NCBI RefSeq assembly: GCF_040744945.1
Contig: NZ_CP160453.1
Coordinates: 5,394,001-5,458,000, forward strand
Source of the DNA: Saccharothrix sp. HUAS TT1
Lineage (GTDB): Bacteria > Actinomycetota > Actinomycetes > Mycobacteriales > Pseudonocardiaceae
Length of the DNA stretch: 64,000 nucleotides
Direction: 5' to 3'
Below the pieces are notes generated by a model. The model saw only the letters and a program-made list of their open reading frames with translations, was not told the origin of the DNA and did not search any database. This document shows positions 4,901 through 37,042 of this stretch, one piece after another; the stretch's first letter is position 1, and every line of letters begins with the position of its first letter. The position numbers were made by a program, and so were the translations under genes.

Positions 4901-6954
4901 CGGCCATGTTCGACCTGACGTTCGTCGCCGTGGTGGACGACGACGGGTTGCACTGCGACCTCCAGTACGCCACCGACCTGTTCGACGAGGCCACCGCGGT
5001 GCGGCTGCTGGACCGGTGGGAGACCCTGCTGCGGGCCGTCGTGCGCGACCCGGACGCCCGCCTGTCCGACCTGGACGTGCTGCCGGCCGCCGAGCGCGAG
5101 CTGGTGACGCGCCGGTTCGGCGCGCCGAGGCCCGCGGTCGGCGGCCGGGAACCGGTGCCGGCGCGGATCGCGGCGCACGCCGTGCGGCGGCCCGGCGCGA
5201 CCGCCCTCGTGCAGGGCGACCGGCGGGTGTCGTACGCGGACCTGGACGACCTGTCGGCCCGGCTGGCCGCCCACCTGGTGTCGTCGGGCGTCGGGCGCGG
5301 CGACCTGGTGGTGGTGTGCGCGCCGCGCGGCGTCGAGTACGTGATCGGCTCGTTGGCGGTCATGCGCGCCGGCGCGGTGTACGCCCCCGTCGACGCCGCG
5401 TTCCCCGCCGCCCGCGTGGCGCAGGTGCTGACCACGGCCGGTGCGGCGGCGGTGCTGGTGACGGGGGAGACCCGGGACCTGGTCGACGGGTTCGCGGGCG
5501 TCGTCGTGGCGGTGGACGAGCCGCGCGACCCGGCGCCCGCGCCCGACGTGCCGATCGGCCCCGAGGACGCGGCCTACGCCATCCACACCTCCGGCTCGAC
5601 CGGGCAGCCCAAGGGCGTGCTGCTCGACCACGGCGGCCTGGCGCTGCGCGTCGACTGGTACAACGCCGACTGCGCGACGACCGAGCACGACCGGGTGTCG
5701 CAGATCGCGGGCACCGGGTTCGACGTGTCGGTGCTGGAGATCTGGTCCGCGCTGACCGCCGGGGCCGAGCTGCACCTGGCCGACCCGGACACCACGGCGT
5801 CCGGCGAGCACGCCGTGCGCTGGCTGGCCGAGCACGGCATCACGGTCGGCTTCCTGCCCACGCCGCTGTGCGAGCTGGCGCTGGACGTGCCGTGGCCCGC
5901 CGGCAGCCCGTTGCGGGTGCTGAGCACCGGCGGCGACGCGCTGCGCAAGCGGCCCGCGCCGGACGCGCCGTTCACCCTGCTCAACCTGTACGGCCCGGCC
6001 GAGGCCACGGTGGTGACCACGAGCTGCGCCGTGCCGCCGACCGGGCCGCGGGTGCCGTCCATCGGCATCCCGGTGCCCGGCGCCCGCGTGCACGTGCTCG
6101 ACCGGCACCTCAACCCGGTCGGCGTCGGCGTGCCGGGCGACCTGCACGTCGGCGGCGGGGGAGTGGCGCTGGGCTACGTCGGCCGGCCCGACCTCACCGC
6201 CGACCGGTTCGTGCCGGACCCGTTCGGCTCCGGGGACCGCCTCTACCGCACCGGCGACCTCGTCCGCTGGCTGCCCGACGGCTCGCTGGACTACCTCGGC
6301 CGCATCGACACGCAGGTGCAGCTGCGCGGGTTCCGGGTCGAGCTGGGCGAGGTCGAGGCCGTGCTGCTGGCGCACCCCGACGTCACCGACGCCGTGGTCG
6401 TCGCCCGCGACCTGCCCGGCATCGGCCTACACCTCGTCGCGTACGTCGTGGGCGGCGCGGACGCCGACGACCTCCGCGCGCACCTGCGCGGCAGGCTGCC
6501 GGACTACATGGTGCCGGCCGCGCTGCACCCGCTGCCCGAGCTGCCGCTCAACCGCAGCGGCAAGGTCGACCGGGCCGCGCTGCCCGAACCGGACCGCGCG
6601 GGCGGCGAGGAGCACGTCGCGCCGCGCACGGACGTGGAGGTGGCCGTCGCGGCCATCTGGTGCGAGCTGCTGCGGGTGGACCGCGTCGGCCTGCACGCGA
6701 ACTTCTTCGCGCTGGGCGGGCACTCGCTGCTCGCCACCCAGGTCGTCACGCGCCTGCGCGCGGAACTGCACCGCGACCTGCCCGTCCGACAGCTCTTCGA
6801 GACACCGACCGTGGCCGAGCTGGCCGCGGTCCTGTCCGACGCCCAGACCACCGAGACCGCCGAAACCTCGGGGACAACCGGGACCGCCGGGGCCGTCGAA
6901 CCCGCGGTCGTGCGGCGGGAACGCCGCTTGCAGCAGCTTCCAGTCACCTCCTGA
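1912..6954 (+). CDS. Non-ribosomal peptide synthetase, C-T-C-A-T
   Basis: A 1680-residue NRPS. Domains: condensation 1 (~36-480, HHVVTDG near 168), carrier protein 1 (GGDSM, Ser568), condensation 2 (~615-1050, HHLVFDG from His754), adenylation (~1080-1560, TSGSTGQPKG near 1226, LNRSGKVD at its end) and carrier protein 2 (GGHSL, Ser1605), then a Thr/Glu-rich tail. The first module has no adenylation domain, so carrier 1 must be charged in trans. There is no thioesterase, so release must occur elsewhere. Three in-frame ATGs cluster at 1900-1914; I chose the third because GGGGA lies 5 nt before it. The aminomutase gene follows after 14 bp, which suggests a shared transcript and a beta-amino acid building block. 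The adenylation pocket residues match no specificity code I know. Confidence 0.93.
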   Translation: MADSVAQARRELLRRLLSSTGGAPAEPVRTAERPDRVPASAAQNRLWFLDQLNGPNAAYNVPFVLRLRGTLDEDALWSSLDDLVARHEVLRTTFEVEDDEVHQVIGDARPLPREVLDLRALPAAERDRAVDDAVRSAAARPFRLDGEPLVRASLLRVDDRLHHFVLNLHHVVTDGWSETVLFREFGELYSARVRGVPADLPPAAQYADYAVWEAGQAGGPLFEAQLAHWRDRLSGHLGEAGIPADRPRPDGSSTRGDNVPVAVPDDLRARLGGTSLFTGVTTALAVLLHRYGDQDRVIVGVPVVNRTREDWESAVGFFANTVALRVDLSDNPTLAQVAERVTAEVLDALTHQHVPFDRVVDALDAQRGAGMNPVFQVMCSVNATTPPPAMAGLDVRLRALDNDTAKFDVELAVEYDEHGVECRFEYATDLFDRPTVQALAEHYRVVLDALLTAPGTRVGDLVLADEASATVVLDGVEAVLRDRYGAPVPVGVPGRVWTDGREDGRVARVRRDGVVEAVRTDAGTTASEDFVEPVTPVERELAAMWSEVLGRAAVSRDDNFFRGAGGDSMLATKVVVRVRRKWGVRITVRQMLQFPVLKDLAAHLAPLVPGTAPDDALVIDAAPAVEDVPLSFAQQRLWFIDQLEPDSAAYNIAELLEITGPLRVDALERALNAVIARHEALRTSVALVDGAPVQRIASELRLTLSVVDGRSPEEAVAQAWHEADRPFDLTAGPLLRATLYPTGPDRRLLALNWHHLVFDGWSQDLFFRELTAFYARETGRDADVPPPPVIQYADYTRWQRAALRAAELVRLQDFWSTALAGAPALLELPTDRPRPAVRGTTGSSRFHDVPADLVAGLREVADRHGVTLYLVLFAAFNALLARHSGQTDIVVGGTTANRATEETERVVGLFVNTLALRTDVSGNPAFGELAARARDTVTAAYAHQDLPFEQVVELLRVERSSSRTPLFQVLFDYQEGSWSTLELDGLAVERVRGADNAAMFDLTFVAVVDDDGLHCDLQYATDLFDEATAVRLLDRWETLLRAVVRDPDARLSDLDVLPAAERELVTRRFGAPRPAVGGREPVPARIAAHAVRRPGATALVQGDRRVSYADLDDLSARLAAHLVSSGVGRGDLVVVCAPRGVEYVIGSLAVMRAGAVYAPVDAAFPAARVAQVLTTAGAAAVLVTGETRDLVDGFAGVVVAVDEPRDPAPAPDVPIGPEDAAYAIHTSGSTGQPKGVLLDHGGLALRVDWYNADCATTEHDRVSQIAGTGFDVSVLEIWSALTAGAELHLADPDTTASGEHAVRWLAEHGITVGFLPTPLCELALDVPWPAGSPLRVLSTGGDALRKRPAPDAPFTLLNLYGPAEATVVTTSCAVPPTGPRVPSIGIPVPGARVHVLDRHLNPVGVGVPGDLHVGGGGVALGYVGRPDLTADRFVPDPFGSGDRLYRTGDLVRWLPDGSLDYLGRIDTQVQLRGFRVELGEVEAVLLAHPDVTDAVVVARDLPGIGLHLVAYVVGGADADDLRAHLRGRLPDYMVPAALHPLPELPLNRSGKVDRAALPEPDRAGGEEHVAPRTDVEVAVAAIWCELLRVDRVGLHANFFALGGHSLLATQVVTRLRAELHRDLPVRQLFETPTVAELAAVLSDAQTTETAETSGTTGTAGAVEPAVVRRERRLQQLPVTS

Positions 6955-6968
6955 GCAACGGAGCACAG

Positions 6969-8117
6969 ATGTCGGAGTCATTCGCCGCGCCCGCAGCGGC
7001 GCCGGGAGCGCCTTCCCCCGAGCAGTGGTCGGACTGGCGCTGGCACATGCGCAACCGCGTCACGAACCTCGACAAGCTGCGCCAGTGGGTGAAGGTCAGC
7101 CCCGCGGAGGAAGAGGCGATCGCCGGGACGGCGGGCAAGTACCGCTGGAGCGTCACGCCGTACTACGCGTCCTTGATGGACCCCGAGGACCCCAACTGCC
7201 CGGTCCGGTTGCAGGCCGTGCCGTCGCACGGCGAGATGCTGGAGTTCCCGGACGCCGACGTCGACCCGGTCGGCGACATGTTCTACCGCAAGACCAACCG
7301 CATCGTGCACAAGTACCCCGACCGGGTGATCATGCTGATCACCGAGTCGTGCCCGGTGTACTGCCGGCACTGCACCCGGAAGTTCCACACCACGGACGTG
7401 GAGGGCACGTACTTCCGCGACAACGAGGGCGGCGACTTCGAGGAGGACTTCCGCTACATCCGGGAGCACCCGGAGATCCGCGACGTCCTGCTCACCGGCG
7501 GCGACCCGCTGTCCTACCGGGACGAGAAGCTGGAGGAGATCATCTCCGGCCTGCGCGCCATCCCCAGCGTCGAGATCATCCGCATCGGCAGCAGGTTCCC
7601 CGTGCTGCTGCCGCAGCGGATCACCGACGAGTTCTGCGAGATGCTGGCCCGGCACCACCCGGTGTGGCTGAACACCCACTTCAACCACTCGCGCGAGATC
7701 ACCCCCGAGGCGGCGGCGGCCGTGGACCGGCTGCTGCGCCACGGCGTGCCGGTCGGCAACCAGACCGTGCTGCTCAAGGGCATCAACGACGACGTGGACA
7801 CGATGCGCAAGCTGATGACGGACCTGCTGCGCATCCGGGTCCGGCCGTACTACCTGTACCACTGCGACAACGTCACCGGCGTCTCCCACTTCATGACCTC
7901 CATCGAGAAGGGCTGGGAGATCATGGAGGGCCTGCAGGGGCACATGACCGGCTTCGGCGTGCCCCAGTACGTGGTGACCACGAAGATCGGCAAGATCCCG
8001 GTGAGCCAGCCGTACCACGAGGTGGTGGAGGACGGCTTGGCGCTGCGCAACTACCGGGGGCAGACGATGACCGTCACGGGCGAGCACTACCGGGTGACCA
8101 AACCACCGACCGGGTGA
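6969..8117 (+). CDS. Radical SAM amino-acid 2,3-aminomutase (KamA-like, substrate uncertain)
   Basis: A 382-residue radical SAM/PLP enzyme that moves an alpha-amino group to the beta carbon. The [4Fe-4S] cysteines are Cys128, Cys132 and Cys135 (CPVYCRHC); LLTGGDPL is the SAM-binding GGE-like motif. The presumed PLP lysine is Lys342 in VVTTKIGKIPV. Clostridial lysine 2,3-aminomutase grips the substrate side-chain amine with Asp293 and Asp330. Here the first is kept (Asp300 in YHCDN), but the second is Thr337 and the neighbouring glycine-rich loop is two residues shorter. The substrate may therefore not be plain lysine; arginine, glutamate or an N-hydroxylated lysine are options. It lies 14 bp after the NRPS and ends at a strong terminator. 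Confidence 0.88.
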   Translation: MSESFAAPAAAPGAPSPEQWSDWRWHMRNRVTNLDKLRQWVKVSPAEEEAIAGTAGKYRWSVTPYYASLMDPEDPNCPVRLQAVPSHGEMLEFPDADVDPVGDMFYRKTNRIVHKYPDRVIMLITESCPVYCRHCTRKFHTTDVEGTYFRDNEGGDFEEDFRYIREHPEIRDVLLTGGDPLSYRDEKLEEIISGLRAIPSVEIIRIGSRFPVLLPQRITDEFCEMLARHHPVWLNTHFNHSREITPEAAAAVDRLLRHGVPVGNQTVLLKGINDDVDTMRKLMTDLLRIRVRPYYLYHCDNVTGVSHFMTSIEKGWEIMEGLQGHMTGFGVPQYVVTTKIGKIPVSQPYHEVVEDGLALRNYRGQTMTVTGEHYRVTKPPTG

Positions 8118-8123
8118 GTCGTC

Positions 8124-8160
8124 GCGGTCCGGCCACCCGTGGCGCGGGTGGCCGGACCGC
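8124..8160. terminator. Bidirectional terminator
   Basis: A perfect 16-bp stem, GCGGTCCGGCCACCCG with its complement, around a 5-nt loop. It sits between the convergent aminomutase gene and the unknown gene that ends at 8168. There is no U-tract, as is common in high-GC actinomycetes. Confidence 0.8.
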
Positions 8161-8167
8161 GTTCCCG

Positions 8168-9358
8168 TCAGAGCGGGCCGTCCGGCCGCCGCCCGCTCGC
8201 CACGGCCGCCACCTGCTCGGGGGTGAACGGGGGGTCGAGCAGGTCCGCCCGCTGGGCGTGGCAGCGGAACATGTCCGCGATGTAGTGCATCCGGTCGGGC
8301 AAGTCGGACCAGTCCCGCGTGGCGGTGTCGAGCAGGCTGTCAGCGGTCGGGTCGACCGCCTTGAGCAGCGCCAGCAGCTCGGGGTGCGACAACCTCGCCA
8401 GCAGCGGCGGGAACCGCGCGGGCAGGTCCTCGCCCAGGTCGAGCACTTCGCCGCCGGGCAGCGCCATCGTCATCAGGTGCTCGGTGACCGCCCGGCGCAC
8501 CAGGGCGCGGGCGTGGTCGGCCAACCGCTCGGTCGCGGCCCGGACGGGCGTGCGGCGGCCGAGCACGGTCAGCAGCACCCGGCGCAGCCACCTGACCACC
8601 CGGTTGCCCGGCAGGACCAGGTCGAGCAGCCGCCGTTCCAGCTCCTCCGGGTCGATGACGGGCGCCTCCATCGCGGCCGTGATCTCGGGTTGCAGCCGGG
8701 TCTGCTCGTGCAGGCCGACCTCGATGTTGGCCAGCAGCAGCAGTTCCGCCCGCTCCTTCGGGTCGGTGGCGAACCTGGCGTGGTGGTAGCGGGTGAACGC
8801 CTGCCTCAGGTAGCGCTGCCCCTCGGGCGGCTCACCGGGTCGCAGCGAGTCGCGGAACCGCGCGATGCGGTCCTCGTCGACCTCCTCGGCGTCGGCGAAC
8901 TCGGCCAGGAACCGGGCGAACTCGCGGGCGACCTCCTCGAAGACCTTGAGGTTCCCCCGCGCCGCCGCCTCGCCGGCCGCGTCCAGCCGCGCGGTCGCCA
9001 GGACGGCCTGGCGCACCAACCGCCCGCCGTCGTCCAGCACCCGCCGCGGCACCGCGAGCCGCAGGCTCCGGACGACCACCTCGACCAGCGCCGCCGTCTC
9101 GGGCGACTCCAACCGCCGCCGCAGGTCCTCCTGCCGGATCGTCCGGCCGACCTGCTTCGACGCCCACACCGCGAACGTGCACCAGTTGGCCGCCCCGCCG
9201 GTGACCGCCGCCAGCTCCCGGGACAGCTCGTGGTAGCAGTGCGTGATCTGGAGGTTCCGGACGACGGCCTCCGGCCGCGCGGCGATCCGCTCGACGTCGG
9301 CCACCGTCGGCGGGACGCCGCCGACCGACTCGCGCACGTCCTCACTGGCTCGGGTCAT
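8168..9358 (-). CDS. Conserved-looking protein of unknown function
   Basis: 396 residues, rich in Arg, Ala and Leu, predicted mostly alpha-helical and soluble; no signal peptide or membrane segment. I recognise no enzyme motif. Distinct features are a segment with THCYHELSRELA followed by ANWCTFAVWASKQVG (about residues 40-70), and long amphipathic helices, including a basic stretch VVRWLRRVLLTVLGRRTP near residue 255. Third-position GC is high and GGAAGG lies upstream of the ATG, so it is a real gene. It is last in a minus-strand series: glycosyltransferase fusion, acyl-CoA ligase, this gene, with gaps of 63 and 73 bp. That link to the NRPS cluster is by position only. Confidence 0.75.
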   Translation of the reverse strand: MTRASEDVRESVGGVPPTVADVERIAARPEAVVRNLQITHCYHELSRELAAVTGGAANWCTFAVWASKQVGRTIRQEDLRRRLESPETAALVEVVVRSLRLAVPRRVLDDGGRLVRQAVLATARLDAAGEAAARGNLKVFEEVAREFARFLAEFADAEEVDEDRIARFRDSLRPGEPPEGQRYLRQAFTRYHHARFATDPKERAELLLLANIEVGLHEQTRLQPEITAAMEAPVIDPEELERRLLDLVLPGNRVVRWLRRVLLTVLGRRTPVRAATERLADHARALVRRAVTEHLMTMALPGGEVLDLGEDLPARFPPLLARLSHPELLALLKAVDPTADSLLDTATRDWSDLPDRMHYIADMFRCHAQRADLLDPPFTPEQVAAVASGRRPDGPL

Positions 9359-9431
9359 CGACGCCGACCTTCCTGTCCCGGGGTTCCTGCCCTGTTGGTC
9401 GTCACGGGGGCGGAGAACGTGACACCCCGGT

Positions 9432-10883
9432 TCAGGACTCCCAGGTCCGCACGACGTGCCGGCGCAACTTGCCCGAGCCGGTGCGCGGCAGGGCGGGGAC
9501 GAAGGCGACCTTGCGCGGCACCTTGTACGGGGTCAGGTGGTCGCGGGCCAGGGTGAGGAGGGCGTCGGCCAGGGCGTCGTCCGCCAGGGGGCCGTCGGCG
9601 CGGACGACGTGGGCGCGCAGGTGGACCGAGCCGTCGGCGTCGGTGGTGGCGGAGACGGCGGCCTCGCGGACCTGCGGGTGGCCGGTCAGGAGGTGTTCGA
9701 CCTCCAGCGGGTGGACCTTGATGCCGCCCACGTTCTCGATGTCGTCCAGCCTGCCGGTGACGCGGACGAAGCCGTCGGCGTCGATCGAGGCCAGGTCGCC
9801 GCTGGCGTACCAGTCGTCGGTGCGCTTCGCCGTGCCGTCCTCGTGGACGCCGAGGGTGACGGTCGGGCCGCGCAGCTCCAGCCGGCCGACGACGTCCGGT
9901 CCGACCGGGTCGCCCCCGTCGTCCACGACGCGCACCTCGAACGGCGGCAGCGCGCGGCCCACCGTGCCGACCCGGCGGGCGGTCGGGGTGTTGTGGGTGA
10001 ACGCCTGCCCGGCCTCGGTGGAACCGATGCCGTTGAGCAGGCGGTCGCCCAGCACCTCCATCAGCCGCTCCTCCAGCGACTCCACCAGCACCTCGCCCCC
10101 GGTGGCGGCGACGCGGAGGTTGGCCAGCCGGTCCGCGCCGGGGTGGGCGATGAGCTTGCTGTAGAACGTCGGCACGGCGAACAGCGCGGTCACGTCGTAC
10201 TTGTCCACGATCGCCAGCACGTCGTCCACCAGCGGGGCGTGCGGGTTCAGCACCACGTGGCACCCGCTGAACAGCGGGAAGACCAGGGAGTTGATCAGGC
10301 CGTAGGAGAAGTACATCTTGGACACCGAGTGCACGACGTCGGTCGGCCCGAGGTCGAGCGCGGCCACGGCGAAGGACCGGTGGTGGGTGGCCGGGTCGCC
10401 GTGCAGTCGCGGGCACAGCCGCGGCACGCCCGTGGTGCCCGAGGTGAACGTGGCGTACACCTGGTCGTCCGAGGCGCGCGGCGTGACCGGGACCGGCGGG
10501 CCGCCGTCCAGTTCGGCGAACGTGGTCACCGGGAAGGCGGTCGTCGGGATCGCGTCGGCGGCGCGGCGCACGACCAGCGCGGGCCGGGCGGCTGCCAGCA
10601 CCTGGCGCAGCTCGTCGGGGTGCAGCCGGGGGTTGAGCGGGACGGCCACCGCGCCGGCGTGCGCCGCGCCCAGGAAGGTCAGCACGAAGTCCGGCCCGTC
10701 GTCGAGCACGAGCGCCACCCGGTCGCCGGCCCGCACGCCGGCGCGGACCAGCGCGCCGGCCACCCGCGCCGCGCCCTCGTACACGTCGGCGTGCGTCAGC
10801 ATGGCGCCGTCGACCTCGTAGGCCGGGCGGTCCAGCCACCCTCCGGCGTCGGCTCCGGCGCGCAGCGCTTCGACCAGGTTCAT
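9432..10883 (-). CDS. Acyl-CoA ligase / AMP-binding enzyme (benzoate-CoA ligase-like)
   Basis: 483 residues of the ANL superfamily. Visible motifs: TSGTTGVP (P-loop-like A3, near residue 170), GIGSTEAGQ (A5), YASGDLASID (A7), GRLDDIENVGGIKVHP (A8) and the C-terminal RTGSGKLRRH with the catalytic lysine. The sequence around SVSKMYFSYGL and NGIGSTEAG resembles benzoate/4-hydroxybenzoate-CoA ligases more than fatty-acyl ligases. It would activate a carboxylic acid to an acyl adenylate, then to a CoA or carrier thioester. In this cluster it could supply an aryl or acyl starter to the NRPS, perhaps to the carrier protein without its own A domain; that is inference. GGGAGA precedes the ATG. Confidence 0.85.
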   Translation of the reverse strand: MNLVEALRAGADAGGWLDRPAYEVDGAMLTHADVYEGAARVAGALVRAGVRAGDRVALVLDDGPDFVLTFLGAAHAGAVAVPLNPRLHPDELRQVLAAARPALVVRRAADAIPTTAFPVTTFAELDGGPPVPVTPRASDDQVYATFTSGTTGVPRLCPRLHGDPATHHRSFAVAALDLGPTDVVHSVSKMYFSYGLINSLVFPLFSGCHVVLNPHAPLVDDVLAIVDKYDVTALFAVPTFYSKLIAHPGADRLANLRVAATGGEVLVESLEERLMEVLGDRLLNGIGSTEAGQAFTHNTPTARRVGTVGRALPPFEVRVVDDGGDPVGPDVVGRLELRGPTVTLGVHEDGTAKRTDDWYASGDLASIDADGFVRVTGRLDDIENVGGIKVHPLEVEHLLTGHPQVREAAVSATTDADGSVHLRAHVVRADGPLADDALADALLTLARDHLTPYKVPRKVAFVPALPRTGSGKLRRHVVRTWES

Positions 10884-10946
10884 CCCAGTGCTCTCCCTGC
10901 TCGGTCCCGCCCGTGCTCGCGGGCGGGGGACGTCTTGCGGACGGCG

Positions 10947-12701
10947 TCAGCGGTCGGCCGGCCGGGTCGCGGCCGACTCCGCGCGCCACGCCCGCACCGC
11001 GTCGAACACCCCGGCGGTGGCCTCCAGGCACGTCAGCGGCGCGGGACCACCGCGCAGCGCGCCGAGGAAGTCCGCCCCGGCTGTGGGTGACGCGACGAGG
11101 TCGGCGGTCAGCACGCCGCCGTCGCCGGTGATGGTGAGGTGGAGCCGGGGTTCGCCCCGGCCCAGCTCGACCGTTCCGCTCAGGGTTCCGGCGGACGCGG
11201 TGGCCCGCACGCGGTCGTGCGTCGCGGTGGTGGTGCGGAGGTCGGTGACGGGGGCGCCGAGCACGCGTTCGAGCGCGTCGAGCGCGTCGGGGCCGAGGTC
11301 GGCGACGAGGTCGTGGCCGGTGGGGTGGTCCAGGCGCAGCGCGAAGCCGCGCGGGGCGCCGGCGTCGCCCCCGGTGATGGCTTTGTTCAGCGCGGTCAGG
11401 TCCGGGTGGTGGGCCCAGGGCAGGTCGACCGAACAGCGGCCCGGCGCCCGGCGGGCGGCTTCGACCAGGGCGGGGAGGTCGTCCAGGGCCGGCTTGGCGA
11501 GCAGGACGTGCAGGCCCCGGCGCAACGCGGTCAGCACCGCGCCGGTGTTCGGCGCGTGGACCAGGACGCCCTCGGCGGGCACCGTTTCGACCAGGTGGGT
11601 GCTGTCGCGCAGGGCCCAGGGCGCGTCGTGGGCGCGGGCGGCGGTCAGCAACGCGCGCGAATCGGGATCGGCCACGCCGACCACCCGAACCCCGCGCAGG
11701 CCCGCCACCGGCAGGGCGCCGGCTCCGGAGCCCGCGTCTCCCGCGCCGAGCACCAGGAGCCGCACGTCCGCCGGCTCCCCGGTGGCCAGCGCGCCGTCGC
11801 TGGCGAAGAAGCTCAAGTCGGCCGACCCGACCTCGGCGTCCGCCGACACCGACACCAGGGGCCGGTCCAGGTCGCTGTAGTCCTTCCGCACCGGAACCCA
11901 CTCCAGCGCCTCCGCCGGGTGCGACGGCCCCGCCGCGAACAGCTCGGCCCACCGGCTGCGGATCACCCGCGTGTGGCGCTTCCAGATCGGCAGCTTGTCG
12001 TGCCCGACGTGGTTGAACGTGGTGCCCTCGAAGTGCCGCACCGCCACCGACCCGACGTACCGAAGCCGCTCGCCGTCGGCGCGCAGCCGGCAGCACAGGT
12101 CGACGTCCTCGCACAGCGACACCGGGTCGAACGACACGTCGAACCCGCCCACCCGCCGGAACGAGCTGTGCCGGACCATCAGCGCGGCCGTGGGCGCCCA
12201 GCTCTGCTCGCGGTGCTCCCGGTGCGCGGCGGTCAGCGGCTGCCCGCGCCCGACCGGCCCGATGCGGCCGTCGGAGGTGGACGCGCCGCCCGCGCACTGC
12301 ACGAGCCCGCTGTCACCGGGGTAGAGCAGCAGCGGCGACACGCCGCCCAGACCGGGGTCGGCGGCCAGCTCGGCGGCCAGCACCTCGACGACGTCCGGGT
12401 CGTCCACGAGCACGTCGTTGTCCAGGAACAGCAGGTACTCGCCGCGGGCGGCGGCCGCGCCGACGTTGCGCCGTTCGCTGCCGCCGCGGTCGTCCTCGTG
12501 GCGCAGCACCACGAGCGGGCGGGGGTGGTCCAGGGCGGCCAGGTGCTCGGCGGTGCCGTCGTCGGAGCCGTTGTCCACCACGACGACCTCGAAGTCACCG
12601 GACGCGCGGGCCAGCGAGTCCAGGGCCCTGCGCGTGTGCTCCAGGCGGTTGCGGACCAGCATGACGACCGAGACCAGGCCCGGTACCAGGGTCGGGTTCA
12701 C
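10947..12701 (-). CDS. Family 2 glycosyltransferase fused to a Gfo/Idh-like domain
   Basis: 584 residues with two parts. Residues ~10-275 are a GT-A family 2 glycosyltransferase: VSVVMLVRNRLEHTRRAL, VVVVDNGSDDGT, FLDNDVLVDD (DxD-like metal site) and an acidic LCEDVDLCCRLR catalytic region. From ~310 onward the chain resembles the Gfo/Idh/MocA fold, with VVGVADPDSR as cofactor strand and GLHVLLAKPAL where true oxidoreductases usually have EKP, so the lysine is kept but the glutamate is lost. I chose GTG at 12701 because GAAGGG lies 7 nt upstream; an ATG 60 bp further up would add an unlikely leader. It is first in a minus-strand operon with the acyl-CoA ligase. Donor and acceptor are unknown. 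Confidence 0.8.
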   Translation of the reverse strand: MNPTLVPGLVSVVMLVRNRLEHTRRALDSLARASGDFEVVVVDNGSDDGTAEHLAALDHPRPLVVLRHEDDRGGSERRNVGAAAARGEYLLFLDNDVLVDDPDVVEVLAAELAADPGLGGVSPLLLYPGDSGLVQCAGGASTSDGRIGPVGRGQPLTAAHREHREQSWAPTAALMVRHSSFRRVGGFDVSFDPVSLCEDVDLCCRLRADGERLRYVGSVAVRHFEGTTFNHVGHDKLPIWKRHTRVIRSRWAELFAAGPSHPAEALEWVPVRKDYSDLDRPLVSVSADAEVGSADLSFFASDGALATGEPADVRLLVLGAGDAGSGAGALPVAGLRGVRVVGVADPDSRALLTAARAHDAPWALRDSTHLVETVPAEGVLVHAPNTGAVLTALRRGLHVLLAKPALDDLPALVEAARRAPGRCSVDLPWAHHPDLTALNKAITGGDAGAPRGFALRLDHPTGHDLVADLGPDALDALERVLGAPVTDLRTTTATHDRVRATASAGTLSGTVELGRGEPRLHLTITGDGGVLTADLVASPTAGADFLGALRGGPAPLTCLEATAGVFDAVRAWRAESAATRPADR

Positions 12702-31999: not shown

Positions 32000-32626
32000 G
32001 TGTCAGGGACGAAGTCGCGCCGTCGTGGGGCGCAGCTGGAGCAGGCCATCCTGGACGCGGCCTGGGACGAGCTGCGCGCGGTCGGCTACGCCCGGCTCAC
32101 CGTGGAGGCGGTGGCCACCCGGGCGGGGACGAGCAAACCCGTCATCTACCGCCGCTGGGGCGGGCGGGCCGAGCTGGTGCTGGCGGCGTGGATGCGCCAC
32201 GTGCCGGTGGAGCACGACGTGCCCGACACCGGCACGCTCAGCGGTGACCTGCGCGACCTGTTCGGCCGCATCGCGCGCCGGGCCGACTCGATGATGAACG
32301 AGGTGGTGGCGGGCGTGATGGGGGAGGCGTTCCGCCACCCCGAGGTCACCGCGCTGCTCGGCGAGCGACTGGCCGACCCGTCACCGCTGACCGAGGCGGT
32401 GGAGGCGATCGTCGTCAACGCCGTGGCGCGCGCCGAACTGCCGCCGGTCGACCTGCCGCACCGGGTGAAGCGGCTGCCGCTCGACCTGGTCCGCTCCGAG
32501 TCGATGATGGCCAACTGCGGCGCCGCGCTGACCGAGGAGGCGGTGGCGTCGCTGGTGGACGAGGTCTACGTGCCCCTGCTGCACGGCCTCGCGGCGGCGC
32601 GGGCGGAGGAGATCAGCGGGGGGTGA
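32000..32626 (+). CDS. TetR-family transcriptional regulator
   Basis: 208 residues, GTG start with AAAGGGA upstream. The N-terminal helix-turn-helix (~12-60) is clear: AILDAAWDELRAVGYARLTVEAVATRAGTSKPVIYRRWGG, given here only as landmarks AILDAAWDE, VATRAGTSK and YRRWGGRAEL. The C-terminal part is an all-helical ligand domain of the TetR_C type common in actinomycetes. It is divergent from the heterodimeric ABC exporter and probably represses it until a ligand binds. Its last 14 bp overlap the end of the convergent lyase-like gene. Confidence 0.9.
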   Translation: MSGTKSRRRGAQLEQAILDAAWDELRAVGYARLTVEAVATRAGTSKPVIYRRWGGRAELVLAAWMRHVPVEHDVPDTGTLSGDLRDLFGRIARRADSMMNEVVAGVMGEAFRHPEVTALLGERLADPSPLTEAVEAIVVNAVARAELPPVDLPHRVKRLPLDLVRSESMMANCGAALTEEAVASLVDEVYVPLLHGLAAARAEEISGG

Positions 32627-33494
32627 CCCTGGCCAGGGCGCCGCTCTCCAGCGCGACCCACAGCGCGCCGTCCGGCCCGACCGCGATGCCGTGCGGTTCC
32701 GAGTGGGCGTCGGGCAGGGCGTGCGACCGGACCTCCAGGTCCGAGGTGATCACGCCGACCCGGTTGCCCGCCCACTCGGTGAACCAGTGGTTGCCGCGGC
32801 CGTCGGCGACGATCGCGTGCGGCCGGGCCTCGCGGTCGGCCAGCGGGAACTCGGTGACCGTCCCGTCCGGGGTGATCCGGCCGACCTGACCCGCGTTGAT
32901 CTCCACGAACCAGACGGCGTCCGCGCCCGCGCAGACGCCCACCGGCCCGGCGCCCGGCGTCGGCAGGGGGTGGACGGCCACCTCGCCGCTCGCGTCGATC
33001 CGCCCGATGGCGTTGGCCTGGTTGAGCGCGAACCACATCCCGCCGTCCGGGCCCGCGGTGATGGCGGACGGGTACGAGCCGGAGACCGGCAGGGCGAACT
33101 CGGTGATCTCGCCGCCGGTGGTGATCCGGCCGATGCGGTCGGCGTTGACCTCGGTGAACCAGAGCGCGCCGTCGTGCCCGACCGCGATCCCGTACGGCCC
33201 GCACTCCGGCGTGGGCGGCGTGAACTCCGCCAGCGCGCCGTCCGTCGTCAGCCGGCCGATGCGGTGCGCCAGGTGCTCGGTGAACCACAGCGCGCCGTCC
33301 GGGCCGGTGACGATGACCGTCGGTCCGCTGCCCGGCTCCAGCCGGTGGCTGGTGGACTCCCCGCCGGGCTCCAACCGGCCGATCGCGCCGGCCCGGACCA
33401 TCGCGAACCAGAGCGCCCCGTCGGGCCCGGCGGTGACGCCGTACGGGCCGCTGTCGCGGTCGGCGAGGTCGAAGGTCTCGATGGGAAGTGACAC
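32613..33494 (-). CDS. Virginiamycin B lyase-like beta-propeller (Vgb family)
   Basis: 293 residues made of seven ~40-residue blades, each with the signature GPDGALWF followed by NxIGRI/HRIGRL and a short strand such as TEF. This is the Vgb fold, whose founding members open the ester ring of type B streptogramins using Mg2+. Near the C-terminus PHGIAVGPDGALWVALES keeps a His and a Glu in the order of the Vgb catalytic His and metal Glu. Many family members have no tested antibiotic activity, so the substrate is uncertain. GTG start; the gene overlaps the TetR gene tail to tail. With the exporter it suggests a resistance block. Confidence 0.75.
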   Translation of the reverse strand: MSLPIETFDLADRDSGPYGVTAGPDGALWFAMVRAGAIGRLEPGGESTSHRLEPGSGPTVIVTGPDGALWFTEHLAHRIGRLTTDGALAEFTPPTPECGPYGIAVGHDGALWFTEVNADRIGRITTGGEITEFALPVSGSYPSAITAGPDGGMWFALNQANAIGRIDASGEVAVHPLPTPGAGPVGVCAGADAVWFVEINAGQVGRITPDGTVTEFPLADREARPHAIVADGRGNHWFTEWAGNRVGVITSDLEVRSHALPDAHSEPHGIAVGPDGALWVALESGALARVTPR

Positions 33495-33625
33495 GGCGGG
33501 TGGTCGTTCCTCGTCATTCGGCGGTGGTGAGGTCGATCATCGCAGACCCTGGCGTTGGTGGAGTCGATCGGCGGGTGGCTCTGGTTGACTGCTGCGGGGG
33601 GACGGCCACTGTTCGAGGAGCGTGG

Positions 33626-34681
33626 ATGGCATCGGCTGGTTCGTTGAGCGCCCGGGAGATCGCACTCGCGGAACGCTTGATCAGTGCTGGTCTGGATCAA
33701 CCGCAGGCTGTGCTCGCCGTCGCCATGTGCACGCGTGGTCATGCCCGGCCTGAGCGGGAGGTGGTGGACCTCGTTCGCCAGTACCCCGGCTTGTCGACCC
33801 CTGGAGTCGCGGAAGCGGCCCTGGCGGCACTCCGCCGCCGGGGTTGGGTGGTCGAGCGGGAGGTCAAGGACACGATGGTCCTCTGCAGCGCCTCACCCGA
33901 CCTGCCGGTCCAGTCCGCGGAATTCGTCGGGGATCCGGCCTTCGCCGAGGCGATGCGGCAGAGCCGGAGCGTGAACCAGCCCGAGGTCCGGATCTTGGGC
34001 CACATGCACGACCCTGGTGTCTACGAGACCTTCGGGCCGCGAATCAGGACGGCGACGCACGAAATCCTGTTGCCGATGATCAACACCACGCCGAACCTCG
34101 CTCAAGTCGCCGACCTGCAGAGCGTCGCTCGCTCCGGGGTGTCCGTCAGGGTCCTCCTCGCGGCGCCGAAACTCGCCGCGAGGATTCGCGGGAATGTTTC
34201 ACTCGCGGAGTCGAAGGGGAGGATCGAGGGGTGGGTCAGGAATTCGGACGGGTACGACAACTTCGAAGTGAGGGTGACGAACCGCGCATCGGACCTGTGG
34301 GCGGCCAGCAGCATGTACCTCGACGGTCGTCTACTCAGGTTCGACGTCTTCGACCCGGTTTCCCAGCGCACCACCCAAGGCGTCATGGTCGAGGTGGTGG
34401 CCGACGGTGTGACGAACCTGGCGCTGATCTTCAAGGCGATGTTCGACGAGGCGTGGCAGAGGAGCCGCAGACCGGGATTCACCGGAGCACTGACTGCCAT
34501 CACCCGCGTGATCTGGTTGCCCGTGATCGCCGCGTTGGCCTTCGGAGTGGCACTCCTCCTCGCGAGCCCCAGTTCGGTGCCCGTCGCCTTCACCGGCGGT
34601 GTCCTGGCTGGACTGATCTCGAACTACCTGCCGAGGGTGCCGGAGGCCGTGTCACGAGTGGTCGAACGGCTGAGGAGGTAG
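33626..34681 (+). CDS. Winged-helix / PLD-like membrane-anchored protein (unknown, partner of radical SAM)
   Basis: 351 residues; ATG 33626 has GAGGAG 5 nt upstream. Residues ~10-90 look like a winged helix (VVDLVRQYPGLSTPGVAEAALAALRRRGWVVE in pieces: REVVDLVRQYPG, ALAALRRRGWVV). Residues ~105-290 resemble the phospholipase-D-like fold of TrmB-type sensors: ATHEILLPMI, SGVSVRVLLAAPK, then a strand-rich half with YLDGRLLRFDVF and FDEAWQRS, but no HxK catalytic pair. The end (~298-340) is hydrophobic: VIWLPVIAALAFGVALLLA and AFTGGVLAGLIS, probably one or two membrane helices. It is likely a non-enzymatic sensor. GC is clearly lower than in neighbours. The stop is separated by only 9 bp from the radical SAM gene. 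Function unknown. Confidence 0.72.
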   Translation: MASAGSLSAREIALAERLISAGLDQPQAVLAVAMCTRGHARPEREVVDLVRQYPGLSTPGVAEAALAALRRRGWVVEREVKDTMVLCSASPDLPVQSAEFVGDPAFAEAMRQSRSVNQPEVRILGHMHDPGVYETFGPRIRTATHEILLPMINTTPNLAQVADLQSVARSGVSVRVLLAAPKLAARIRGNVSLAESKGRIEGWVRNSDGYDNFEVRVTNRASDLWAASSMYLDGRLLRFDVFDPVSQRTTQGVMVEVVADGVTNLALIFKAMFDEAWQRSRRPGFTGALTAITRVIWLPVIAALAFGVALLLASPSSVPVAFTGGVLAGLISNYLPRVPEAVSRVVERLRR

Positions 34682-34690
34682 GTGGAGCGG

Positions 34691-35596
34691 ATGGCAGGAC
34701 ACTGCGCGGCGTGCACCTCGCTCGCGATCGTGTCGCCCGGTTGTCGCGAGGCGTTCGTCCGCATAGGGGTGACGAAGCTGCACTGGGAGTGCTGGTCCTC
34801 GTGCAACCTGCACTGCAAATTCTGCTACCGCACGGAGGACGTTCCTCTCGACCACGAGTCCGGGCTGAGGCTGATCGACGTGTGCGCGTACGCCGGAGTG
34901 CGGACCTTCGTCTTCGCTGGTGGCGATCCCTCGCTCCGCTCAGACCTGTCAGAACTCATCGACCATGCCTGCGCATCAGGTCTGGTGGTGGAGCTTCAGT
35001 CGAACTTCCAACGGTTCGACGCTCGTGTCAGGGACAGGGTCGCGGACGGACGGGTATCGCTCAGCGGCTTGTCCCTGGACGCGGCGACGTCGTCGGCGCA
35101 CGATGGTTTCAGGTCCACCCGGGGCAATTTTCGCGCCGTGATTTCTGCGCTGGAATTCCACGAGGGTGCCGGTGCTCCGGTCATAGTCAGAACCGTCATC
35201 ACCCGGCAGAACTGGCGGGAGACTGCGGAGATCGCCGAGCTGTTGTCGCGCTACGAGGTCGTCAAGCGTTGGTCCTTGCTGCAATTCACCCCCGTGGGAC
35301 GGGGTTTCGCCAACGCCTCGATGTACCGACTCGATGACGAGCGGAACTTCGAAGACGCCGCCCGGACAGCAGTTGAGAACTACCGGGGCGCCGGTGAAGT
35401 GGACATCTACCGATCAAATGACAAGCAAGGAACCTATGCGCTGGTCACCGCTGCGGGAAATCTGTACGGCGTGACTCCGGAACCGGCCGGCGGCACGTAC
35501 CCGGTGGTGGGATCCATGCTGCGCGACCACCTCTCGACCCTCGCCGCCGGTCTGCCGTTCTCACGGCACCGCCACCAGGTCAGGTATGGCCACTGA
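34691..35596 (+). CDS. Radical SAM enzyme of unknown function
   Basis: 301 residues. Cluster cysteines Cys38, Cys42, Cys45 (CNLHCKFCY) are in the CX3CX2C pattern; the SAM motif is FAGGDPSL. The N-terminus adds Cys5, Cys8 and Cys18, which might bind metal. Later landmarks are SLSGLSLDAA, VIVRTVITRQNW, KRWSLLQFTPVGRG and DKQGTYALVTAAGNLYGV. The order of strand motifs (LSLD, RTVIT..N, RW.LLQF) recalls MoaA- and viperin-type enzymes, but the family-specific residues do not fit either clearly. ATG 34691 is used; GTG 34682, 3 bp after AGGAGG, is the alternative. It is translationally linked to the winged-helix/PLD-like gene, and both have low GC. Substrate unknown; probably a nucleotide or a peptide. 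Confidence 0.8.
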   Translation: MAGHCAACTSLAIVSPGCREAFVRIGVTKLHWECWSSCNLHCKFCYRTEDVPLDHESGLRLIDVCAYAGVRTFVFAGGDPSLRSDLSELIDHACASGLVVELQSNFQRFDARVRDRVADGRVSLSGLSLDAATSSAHDGFRSTRGNFRAVISALEFHEGAGAPVIVRTVITRQNWRETAEIAELLSRYEVVKRWSLLQFTPVGRGFANASMYRLDDERNFEDAARTAVENYRGAGEVDIYRSNDKQGTYALVTAAGNLYGVTPEPAGGTYPVVGSMLRDHLSTLAAGLPFSRHRHQVRYGH

Positions 35597-35632
35597 GTGG
35601 CGGTGCAGCGGCACCTCTGACCGCACGTTTCA

Positions 35633-37042
35633 TCACCCGCTGGACGTGCAGGTGACGTCCGGGCTGGGGGTGGCGGGGCCGTTGGCGGTGAAGCCGAACG
35701 TGGTGGAGCCCGCCACCGGCAGCTCGGCGTTGTGGTCGGCGTTGCTGACCGACACCGAGCCGTCGTCCACCCTGAGCGTGCCGTTCCACAGGTTGCTGAT
35801 CGCGTGGCCGTCCGGCTGGGGCCAGGTGACGGTCCAGTCGGTCAGCGCGTGCTCGCCCGCGTTGCGCACGGTCACCTGGGCCTGGTAGCCGCCCGGCCAG
35901 GAGTTGGTGACGCCGAAGCGCGCGCTGCAGTCCGACGTCACGGGCACGATCGCGGGGCCGGTCGGGTCGGTGGTCGTGGTGGTGCCCGGGACGGTGGTCG
36001 ACGTGCCGTCGGCGGTCGGCGGGACGGTGGTCGAGGTGCCGGCGACGGTCGTGCTCGGGTCCGGTCGGGCGGCGTTGTCGGGCGCCCGGTCCAGGCTCAG
36101 CCGGTTGCCGATCACGACACCGCCCACGACCAGCACCGCGGCCCCGGCGATCAGGGCCACCCGCCGCCACGGCGCCTGCCGTTCCGGCGGCGCGGGCAGC
36201 GGGCGCGTGTCGCCGGACTGCTGCGCCCACGGCAGCGGCCGGCCCTCGACCACCGCGCCCAGCAGGGCGTGCAGCTCGGCCATCGTCGGGCGCTCGGCCG
36301 GGTCGCGGCGCAGCACGTGCGCCAGCAGGTCGCCGAGCGGGCCGGGGAACCGCAGCGGCGCGACCTCGCCCTCCGACACGCGCCGCAGCAGCGCGTACGG
36401 GTTGTCCGTCGTCCCGAACGGCGGGTGGCCCTCCAGCGCCGTGTACAGCGTCGCGCCCAGCGAGTACACGTCCGACGCGAACACCGCGTCCTGACCGGCC
36501 GCCACCTCCGGCGCGAGGAACGCCGGTGTGCCGACCACGATCCGCGGGTCGGTCACGGTGCCCTCGCCGATCGCCCTGGCGATGCCGAAGTCGGCGATCT
36601 TCGCGGTGCCGTCCTCGCCGAGCAGGACGTTGAACGTGGTGACGTCCCGGTGCACGACCCCGGCCGCGTGCGCCGCCGCCAGCGCCGACGCCACCTGCCA
36701 CCCGACGCCCGCCACCAGCTCCTCGGGCAGCGGCCCGCGCTCGTCGACCACCTCGGCCAGCGTCTGCGACGGCAGGTACTCCATCACCAGGCAGGGCTTG
36801 CCGCCGTGCTCCACGACGTCGTGCACGGTGACCGCGTGCGGGTGCCGCAACCGGGCGGCGACCCGCCCCTCGCGCACGATCCGCTCCACCGCCTCCGGCG
36901 AGCTGCCGGACCCGACGAACTTGACCGCGACCGCCCGGCCCAGCCGCTCGTCCCGCGCCCGCCAGACCACCCCGGAGGCCCCGCGCCCGATCAGCTCCAC
37001 CAGGCGGTAACGCCCCGCGATGACCTCGTCCCGTTCCGACAC
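35633..37042 (-). CDS. Membrane Ser/Thr protein kinase with extracellular cellulose-binding module (CBM2)
   Basis: 469 residues, GTG start. A PknB-type kinase fills ~10-275: glycine loop GRGASGVVW, VAVKF, HRD motif in VVHRDVTTFNVLL, metal site ADFGIAR and APE in FLAPEVA. The usual lysine after HRD is Thr, so activity may be altered. A membrane helix (VALIAGAAVLVVGGVVIG) is followed by a Thr-rich linker with STTV repeats. The end (~365-469) is a CBM2: CSARFGVTNSWPGGYQAQVTVRNAG, whose strands and tryptophans mark a type A cellulose-binding face. The cytoplasmic kinase could thus sense cellulose or chitin outside, fitting the secreted hydrolases nearby. Substrates are not evident. Confidence 0.9.
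   Translation of the reverse strand: MSERDEVIAGRYRLVELIGRGASGVVWRARDERLGRAVAVKFVGSGSSPEAVERIVREGRVAARLRHPHAVTVHDVVEHGGKPCLVMEYLPSQTLAEVVDERGPLPEELVAGVGWQVASALAAAHAAGVVHRDVTTFNVLLGEDGTAKIADFGIARAIGEGTVTDPRIVVGTPAFLAPEVAAGQDAVFASDVYSLGATLYTALEGHPPFGTTDNPYALLRRVSEGEVAPLRFPGPLGDLLAHVLRRDPAERPTMAELHALLGAVVEGRPLPWAQQSGDTRPLPAPPERQAPWRRVALIAGAAVLVVGGVVIGNRLSLDRAPDNAARPDPSTTVAGTSTTVPPTADGTSTTVPGTTTTTDPTGPAIVPVTSDCSARFGVTNSWPGGYQAQVTVRNAGEHALTDWTVTWPQPDGHAISNLWNGTLRVDDGSVSVSNADHNAELPVAGSTTFGFTANGPATPSPDVTCTSSG

Follow-up and report, generated by a model that had tools for sequence, protein, structure and literature searches.

What is a two-gene cassette of conspicuously low G+C content, lying between genes to which it is unrelated, doing in the chromosome of Saccharothrix sp. 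HUAS TT1? We address this question for positions 5394001-5458000 on contig 1 of this 8.7-Mb actinomycete chromosome, a 64-kb stretch of DNA that we refer to as the window. The cassette consists of a gene for a protein with a winged helix and a phospholipase D (PLD)-like domain (gene A), followed by a gene for a radical S-adenosylmethionine (SAM) enzyme (gene B). Combining profile searches, structure models and the gene neighbourhoods of relatives, we find that gene B has a predicted viperin fold, that gene A lacks the catalytic residues of PLD enzymes, and that the two recur together, in one genome inside a phage defence operon. Viperins are common to animal and bacterial immunity, and the pair is probably an undescribed antiviral module. 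More specifically, we give about even chances to the proposal that B alters a nucleotide-like substrate and that gene A is a membrane-bound sensor or regulator, in an antiviral module that was acquired horizontally.

The radical SAM identity of gene B is confirmed by a match to PF04055 (6.8e-14). In the predicted structure the viperin fold extends across its full length, which, together with the nucleotide enzymes encoded next to its relatives, backs the 'nucleotide-enzyme-like' features that a preliminary description of this DNA had ascribed to it. By sequence, gene B scores 60 bits with the viperin profile NF038283, aligned from position 4 to position 280 of its 281 and far under the curated cut-off of 180; the profile also matches all 30 members of set A1 at E ≤ 1e-5 (best 3.6e-29). 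The profile for prokaryotic viperins (pVips) gives 71 bits, compared with 261-271 bits for two pVips encoded on viral contigs. The radical SAM triad is almost invariant in an alignment of 52 rows, with C38 and C45 in all of them and C42 in 51. Gene B also differs from viperins in carrying an extra four-cysteine motif outside this triad, complete in 43 of 44 rows with an N-terminal part (C5 and C8 are missing in eight of the 52), and in being paired with a membrane pseudo-PLD protein.

A further difference concerns the substrate pocket. We take K120, R194, K220, N222, R245 and K247, in a numbering that we likewise assume, to be the residues with which mouse viperin binds nucleoside triphosphates (NTPs). 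This set is not kept as a whole. In hhalign columns, R194 corresponds to R141 (52 of 52 rows) and R245 to R193 (arginine in 37 of 52), N222 falls on an equally invariant arginine, R167 (52 of 52), and the lysines are replaced: K120 by T72 (a variable column, with no lysine among the 49 of 52 rows listed), K220 by I165 (no lysine in 52) and K247 by S195 (serine in 37 of 52, lysine in one, the Lentzea row). Several presumed CTP-ligand positions of viperins and pVips, which are radical-SAM-dependent nucleotide dehydratases, are different in gene B. The literature searched, passages of PMC8124187 included, did not yield the CTP-contacting residues of viperin.

Sequence and structure model together give gene A a winged helix, a pseudo-PLD domain and a C-terminal hydrophobic hairpin. 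Its earlier description as PLD-like is clear by structure; by sequence, PLDc_2 is the sole Pfam entry at E ≤ 1 and stays below its cut-off (12.6 bits against 27), and the TrmB profile gives no match. The HxKx4D motif is found in none of 14 aligned gene-A rows, all of which retain the aspartate. We reject an active PLD nuclease on this loss, and a PLD-like domain without catalytic residues makes a PLD nuclease effector unlikely. Structure comparison places the winged helix ahead of the PLD-like ligand domain, as in the TrmB and TrmBL2 regulators. VIA-align scores of PLD nucleases (16.2 and 15.8) are about level with that of TrmBL2 (15.3), and the TrmB likeness suggested by the model draws on Foldseek ranks and domain order. 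Unlike those regulators, gene A has a hydrophobic hairpin and an enzyme partner, and its two domains are oriented differently from those of TrmBL2 (root-mean-square deviation ~24 Å over both). The hairpin is probably a membrane anchor; model confidence drops to 43-75 across residues 291-351.

To place the pair in its genomic context, we read nine gene-A loci: the window, Rhodococcus (L144, genome G933), Micromonospora craterilacus (L001), Lentzea pudingi (L002) and five from the genus of genome G077 (L103, L124, L125, L126 and L127). Gene A and a B-like enzyme stand together in four of the nine, and each of the four close-B loci that were read, in the window, Rhodococcus, Micromonospora and Lentzea, also carries gene A. 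The checks proposed at the outset came out for the most part in favour of the pair: adjacent homologues exist, and the neighbourhood is no housekeeping pathway.

In Rhodococcus, a 4-base overlap joins genes A and B, which lie on the same strand between the genes for PglX and BrxC-PglY, inside a bacteriophage exclusion (BREX) type 2, or Pgl, operon that is completed by PglW, PglZ, BrxD and BrxHI (PglW and BrxD were tested as cut pieces). All six genes of what we take to be the BREX type 2 core (pglW, pglX, pglY, pglZ, brxD and brxHI) surround this pair, compared with none among the five window neighbours tested; the pair is a BREX accessory, not a core component. A small opposite-strand open reading frame (ORF) between B and PglY has no PADLOC match. 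No other finding speaks as strongly for a defence role as this embedding, seen in one genome; together with the recurrence of a non-housekeeping pair it bears out in part the original suggestion of a defence or conflict cassette. Just ahead of this operon, upstream of PglW, stand an MzaC-like gene (215 bits) and an MzaB-like one (89 bits; L146, 564-5145).

Nucleotide enzymes accompany other relatives. The Micromonospora pair is followed by a NUDIX gene and a cytidylate-kinase-like gene (PF13189), the product of which weakly matches the kinase part of the PADLOC viperin-kinase fusion (9e-5). In Lentzea, a histidine phosphatase gene separates A from B, and a phosphoribosyl pyrophosphate synthase gene follows on the opposite strand. 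Within the genus of G077, gene A was found in 5 of 60 genomes, and in 5 of 80 in a second sample, whereas close B occurs in none of the 60 at E ≤ 1e-30. Gene A lies there near genes for an XRE regulator (HTH_31 tested in L103) and a cupin-like protein, about 3.4 kb away in L127; 'cupin-like' is our reading of a gene close to A in L002, L103 and L125, with no Pfam match above cut-off. A DCD-family gene (PF22769) adjoins gene A in L125, an AIRS-family gene is near it in L103, and by reading L126 has a similar DCD-like gene and L125 a gene similar to the AIRS-family one. That gene A stands beside different nucleotide enzymes suggests that it may be the sensing part. The XRE, cupin-like, DCD-family, A and AIRS-like genes of L125 form one run without a B-like gene (5985-11208), possibly a second use of gene A. 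Two further A/B pairs, P0078/P0002 (11054) and P0081/P0008 (3553), are suggested by equal-sized contigs only.

The cassette was apparently imported horizontally, and recently. In 199 genomes searched (24 congeners), gene A is present only in its own genome and G077; it is rare in the family (5 of 297 genomes), and 394 genomes of the class gave its own genome and three weak partial matches. None of the 24 congeners has a member of the close B family; their best match to gene B is a distant paralogue in G022 (4.6e-35). Orthologues of the flanking genes are adjacent in five of these congeners, separated by 213-255 bp in G002, G004, G020 and G022; G001 has the same spacer and a partial kinase match. 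For the remaining 19 they were not seen adjacent among the kinase matches listed, and a Vgb_lyase match lies elsewhere in 10 and is lacking in nine (E ≤ 1e-40). Alignment of the empty sites shows a spacer conserved in all five congeners, with a strong long hairpin between the kinase and Vgb_lyase genes (L128-L132; z −7.4 for one copy). With up to 3 mismatches allowed, the window contains no copy of this spacer sequence, so the spacer was replaced by the cassette and not split by it.

As for the vehicle, terminal repeats of at least 14 nt were not recognised at the cassette edges, and insertion by a terminal-repeat element was rejected. Carriage of the pair by a phage or plasmid was rejected after searches of plasmids, phages and viral contigs: gene A matches none of 72,556 plasmid records at E ≤ 1e-4, and a scan of viral contigs found no relative of it; with gene B, 50,697 phage records gave nothing at E ≤ 1e-10, and 20 plasmid records matched, all annotated TIGR04053 and none covering 80% of the query. 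IMG/VR yielded seven B-like loci that are 20-30% identical. Two of them are pVips by score, on the viral contigs mentioned above (L108, 7980-8867, 271 bits; L109, 7962-8792, 261 bits). The congener G022 has a parallel cassette (L104, G022:C1:5745000-5763000, 8526-10527), in which a MazG-like gene (20.7 bits, just below cut-off), a membrane protein gene and a gene for a B-like radical SAM enzyme (68.8 bits with the pVip profile) stand in a row; we do not use it as main evidence because no Pfam entry matches the membrane protein above cut-off and G022 was the single genome of 200 in which this protein was found.

At the sequence level, the locus is as first described (Table 1). Both ORFs are present, 9 bp separate the gene A stop from the gene B ATG, and the G+C counts given for three sample lines (36/60, 34/60 and 45/60) are exact. 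An alternative start for gene B is possible at a GTG at 34682, immediately after the gene A stop. Taking the 64-kb window as the baseline, the composition does differ: G+C is 65.3% in the cassette region, other window stretches of the same length average 73.6% (s.d. 2.2; z = −3.7), and not one of the 1153 compared (step 50) is so low. At third codon positions, G+C is 0.83 in gene A and 0.78 in gene B; 42 script-picked window ORFs have a median of 0.968, and two short ORFs among these fall below both genes (0.64 and 0.70) and may be mispredictions. The neighbours are unrelated, with a divergent Vgb_lyase gene at 32613-33494 and a convergent serine/threonine kinase gene at 35633-37042, the product of which ends in a C-terminal cellulose-binding CBM_2 domain. 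Scans for sigma-70 promoters and for terminators found nothing.

Table 1 Features of the cassette, in window coordinates (pLDDT, predicted local distance difference test; pTM, predicted template modelling score).
Feature	Position	Strand	Basis or remark
Cassette region, between flanking genes	33495..35632	none	2138 bp, lowest G+C of window
Gene A	33626-34681	+	ORF, 351 aa; relatives; model pLDDT 82.7, pTM 0.64
Gene A, winged-helix-like N-terminal domain, residues ~9-90	33650..33895	+	Helix/strand order of model; TrmBL2 matches start at residues 7-10
Gene A, PLD-like domain, residues 118-283	33977..34474	+	HKD motif without its His and Lys; Asp233 retained
Gene A, C-terminal hydrophobic helical hairpin, residues ~284-350	34475..34675	+	Hydropathy peak 2.61 at residues 284-328
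AGGAGG, ribosome-binding-site-like	34673..34678	+	Sequence; 12 nt ahead of gene B ATG
Gene B, viperin-fold radical SAM enzyme (predicted)	34691-35596	+	ORF, 301 aa counted from ATG
Gene B, four-cysteine motif C5, C8, C18, C34	34703..34792	+	Alignment; outside radical SAM triad
Gene B, radical SAM CxxxCxxC triad C38, C42, C45	34802..34825	+	Alignment

How might the pair work? In the reading that we prefer, gene B would act through a 5'-deoxyadenosyl radical, altering a nucleotide or nucleotide-like phosphate compound that is probably no ordinary NTP, and its product would interfere with phage replication as the 3'-deoxy-3',4'-didehydro-NTPs (ddhNTPs) made by viperin do. Gene A would be a TrmB-type sensor or regulator anchored in the membrane. 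It would bind a small ligand with its catalytically inactive PLD-like domain and contact DNA or a partner with its winged helix, and the enzyme would be produced or released once the nucleotide pool or the membrane is upset by infection. Extending this, the pair could represent a new viperin-fold immunity class, with a rebuilt phosphate pocket and a four-cysteine metal site, a nucleotide derivative other than ddhNTP and the membrane TrmB-like pseudo-PLD protein as a dedicated sensor or receptor; gene A would then be a general partner of nucleotide-altering enzymes in actinomycetes (viperin-like, dCTP-deaminase-like and AIR-synthase-like), and the pair would also serve as a second layer in BREX type 2. 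We put this wider scheme forward tentatively and consider it rather doubtful.

Several observations weigh against an antiviral, viperin-like pair. Other radical SAM families outscore the viperins (at most 60 bits) on gene B, namely TIGR04053 (95 bits), SkfB (86) and BlsE (75); SkfB has the best Foldseek E-value, and the viperin entry 6b4c ranks under SkfB in VIA (21.5). The sequence matches to these three families, with which gene B shares the radical SAM core, mainly span that common core, and the SkfB and BlsE structures, the two covered by the structural comparison, fit gene B less well than the viperin structure does. The three lysines presumed to be phosphate ligands in mouse viperin are not conserved, which makes an NTP substrate doubtful. 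By hydropathy, 3 of the 14 gene-A rows have no membrane segment. The five gene-A genomes in the genus of G077 have no B-like match, and most of 66 close B proteins have no known gene-A partner (gene-A searches gave at least 6 and at least 7 proteins). The BREX embedding comes from one genome, 1 of 361 in the family and 1 of 14 in the genus. Closer to home, no recognised complete defence system is found among the five window neighbours tested; the window kinase scores 237 bits with mad6 and 235 bits with PD-T4-6 kinase models and a window ATP-binding cassette (ABC) protein 87 bits with the mad3 model, which we take as general kinase and ABC homology.

Other arrangements of the same parts have to be considered. 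Just two closely spaced genes, a C-terminal hydrophobic hairpin on gene A and a PLD fold whose lack of catalytic residues suits ligand binding would also fit a module with gene A as the effector, where a small signal made by B binds the pseudo-PLD domain and the hairpin then disturbs the membrane, halting the infected cell. We regard this as possible at fairly long odds, since gene A retains its winged helix and adjoins quite different enzymes, for which a sensor or regulator fits better, and since the membrane segment is not clear in every row. It is unlikely that the pair serves small-molecule biosynthesis, with B resembling BlsE or another nucleotide-sugar enzyme in a nucleoside antibiotic or cofactor pathway and gene A as its regulator: the cassette stands alone here with unrelated genes on either side, one relative lies within a BREX operon and the distribution is sporadic. 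The SkfB match, taken as the best both by profile (86 bits) and by Foldseek E-value, speaks for B as an SkfB-like maturase of ribosomally synthesized and post-translationally modified peptides that acts on gene A or on a small peptide; we consider this highly improbable, and the structural fit favours viperin.

Among the papers listed by our literature searches, we found no description of the A/B pair at the level of titles and the opening parts of abstracts. The main text of a BREX survey (PMC12839542) does not describe it, the terms 'radical SAM' and 'viperin' being absent by term search, and term searches of PMC7159879 and PMC10732462 show no such pair; the one radical SAM effector mentioned in PMC7159879 belongs to another system. 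Viperin-like chemistry is itself known, and we rate as new the partner that gene A provides for it. The control of bacterial viperins is little described in the portions of the literature covered, and a viperin-fold enzyme coupled to a membrane sensor-like protein of its own would open the switching of such enzymes to testing. From the altered pocket of gene B, the expected product is none of ddhCTP, ddhUTP and ddhGTP, and the BREX location of the Rhodococcus relative provides a concrete setting for a phage test.
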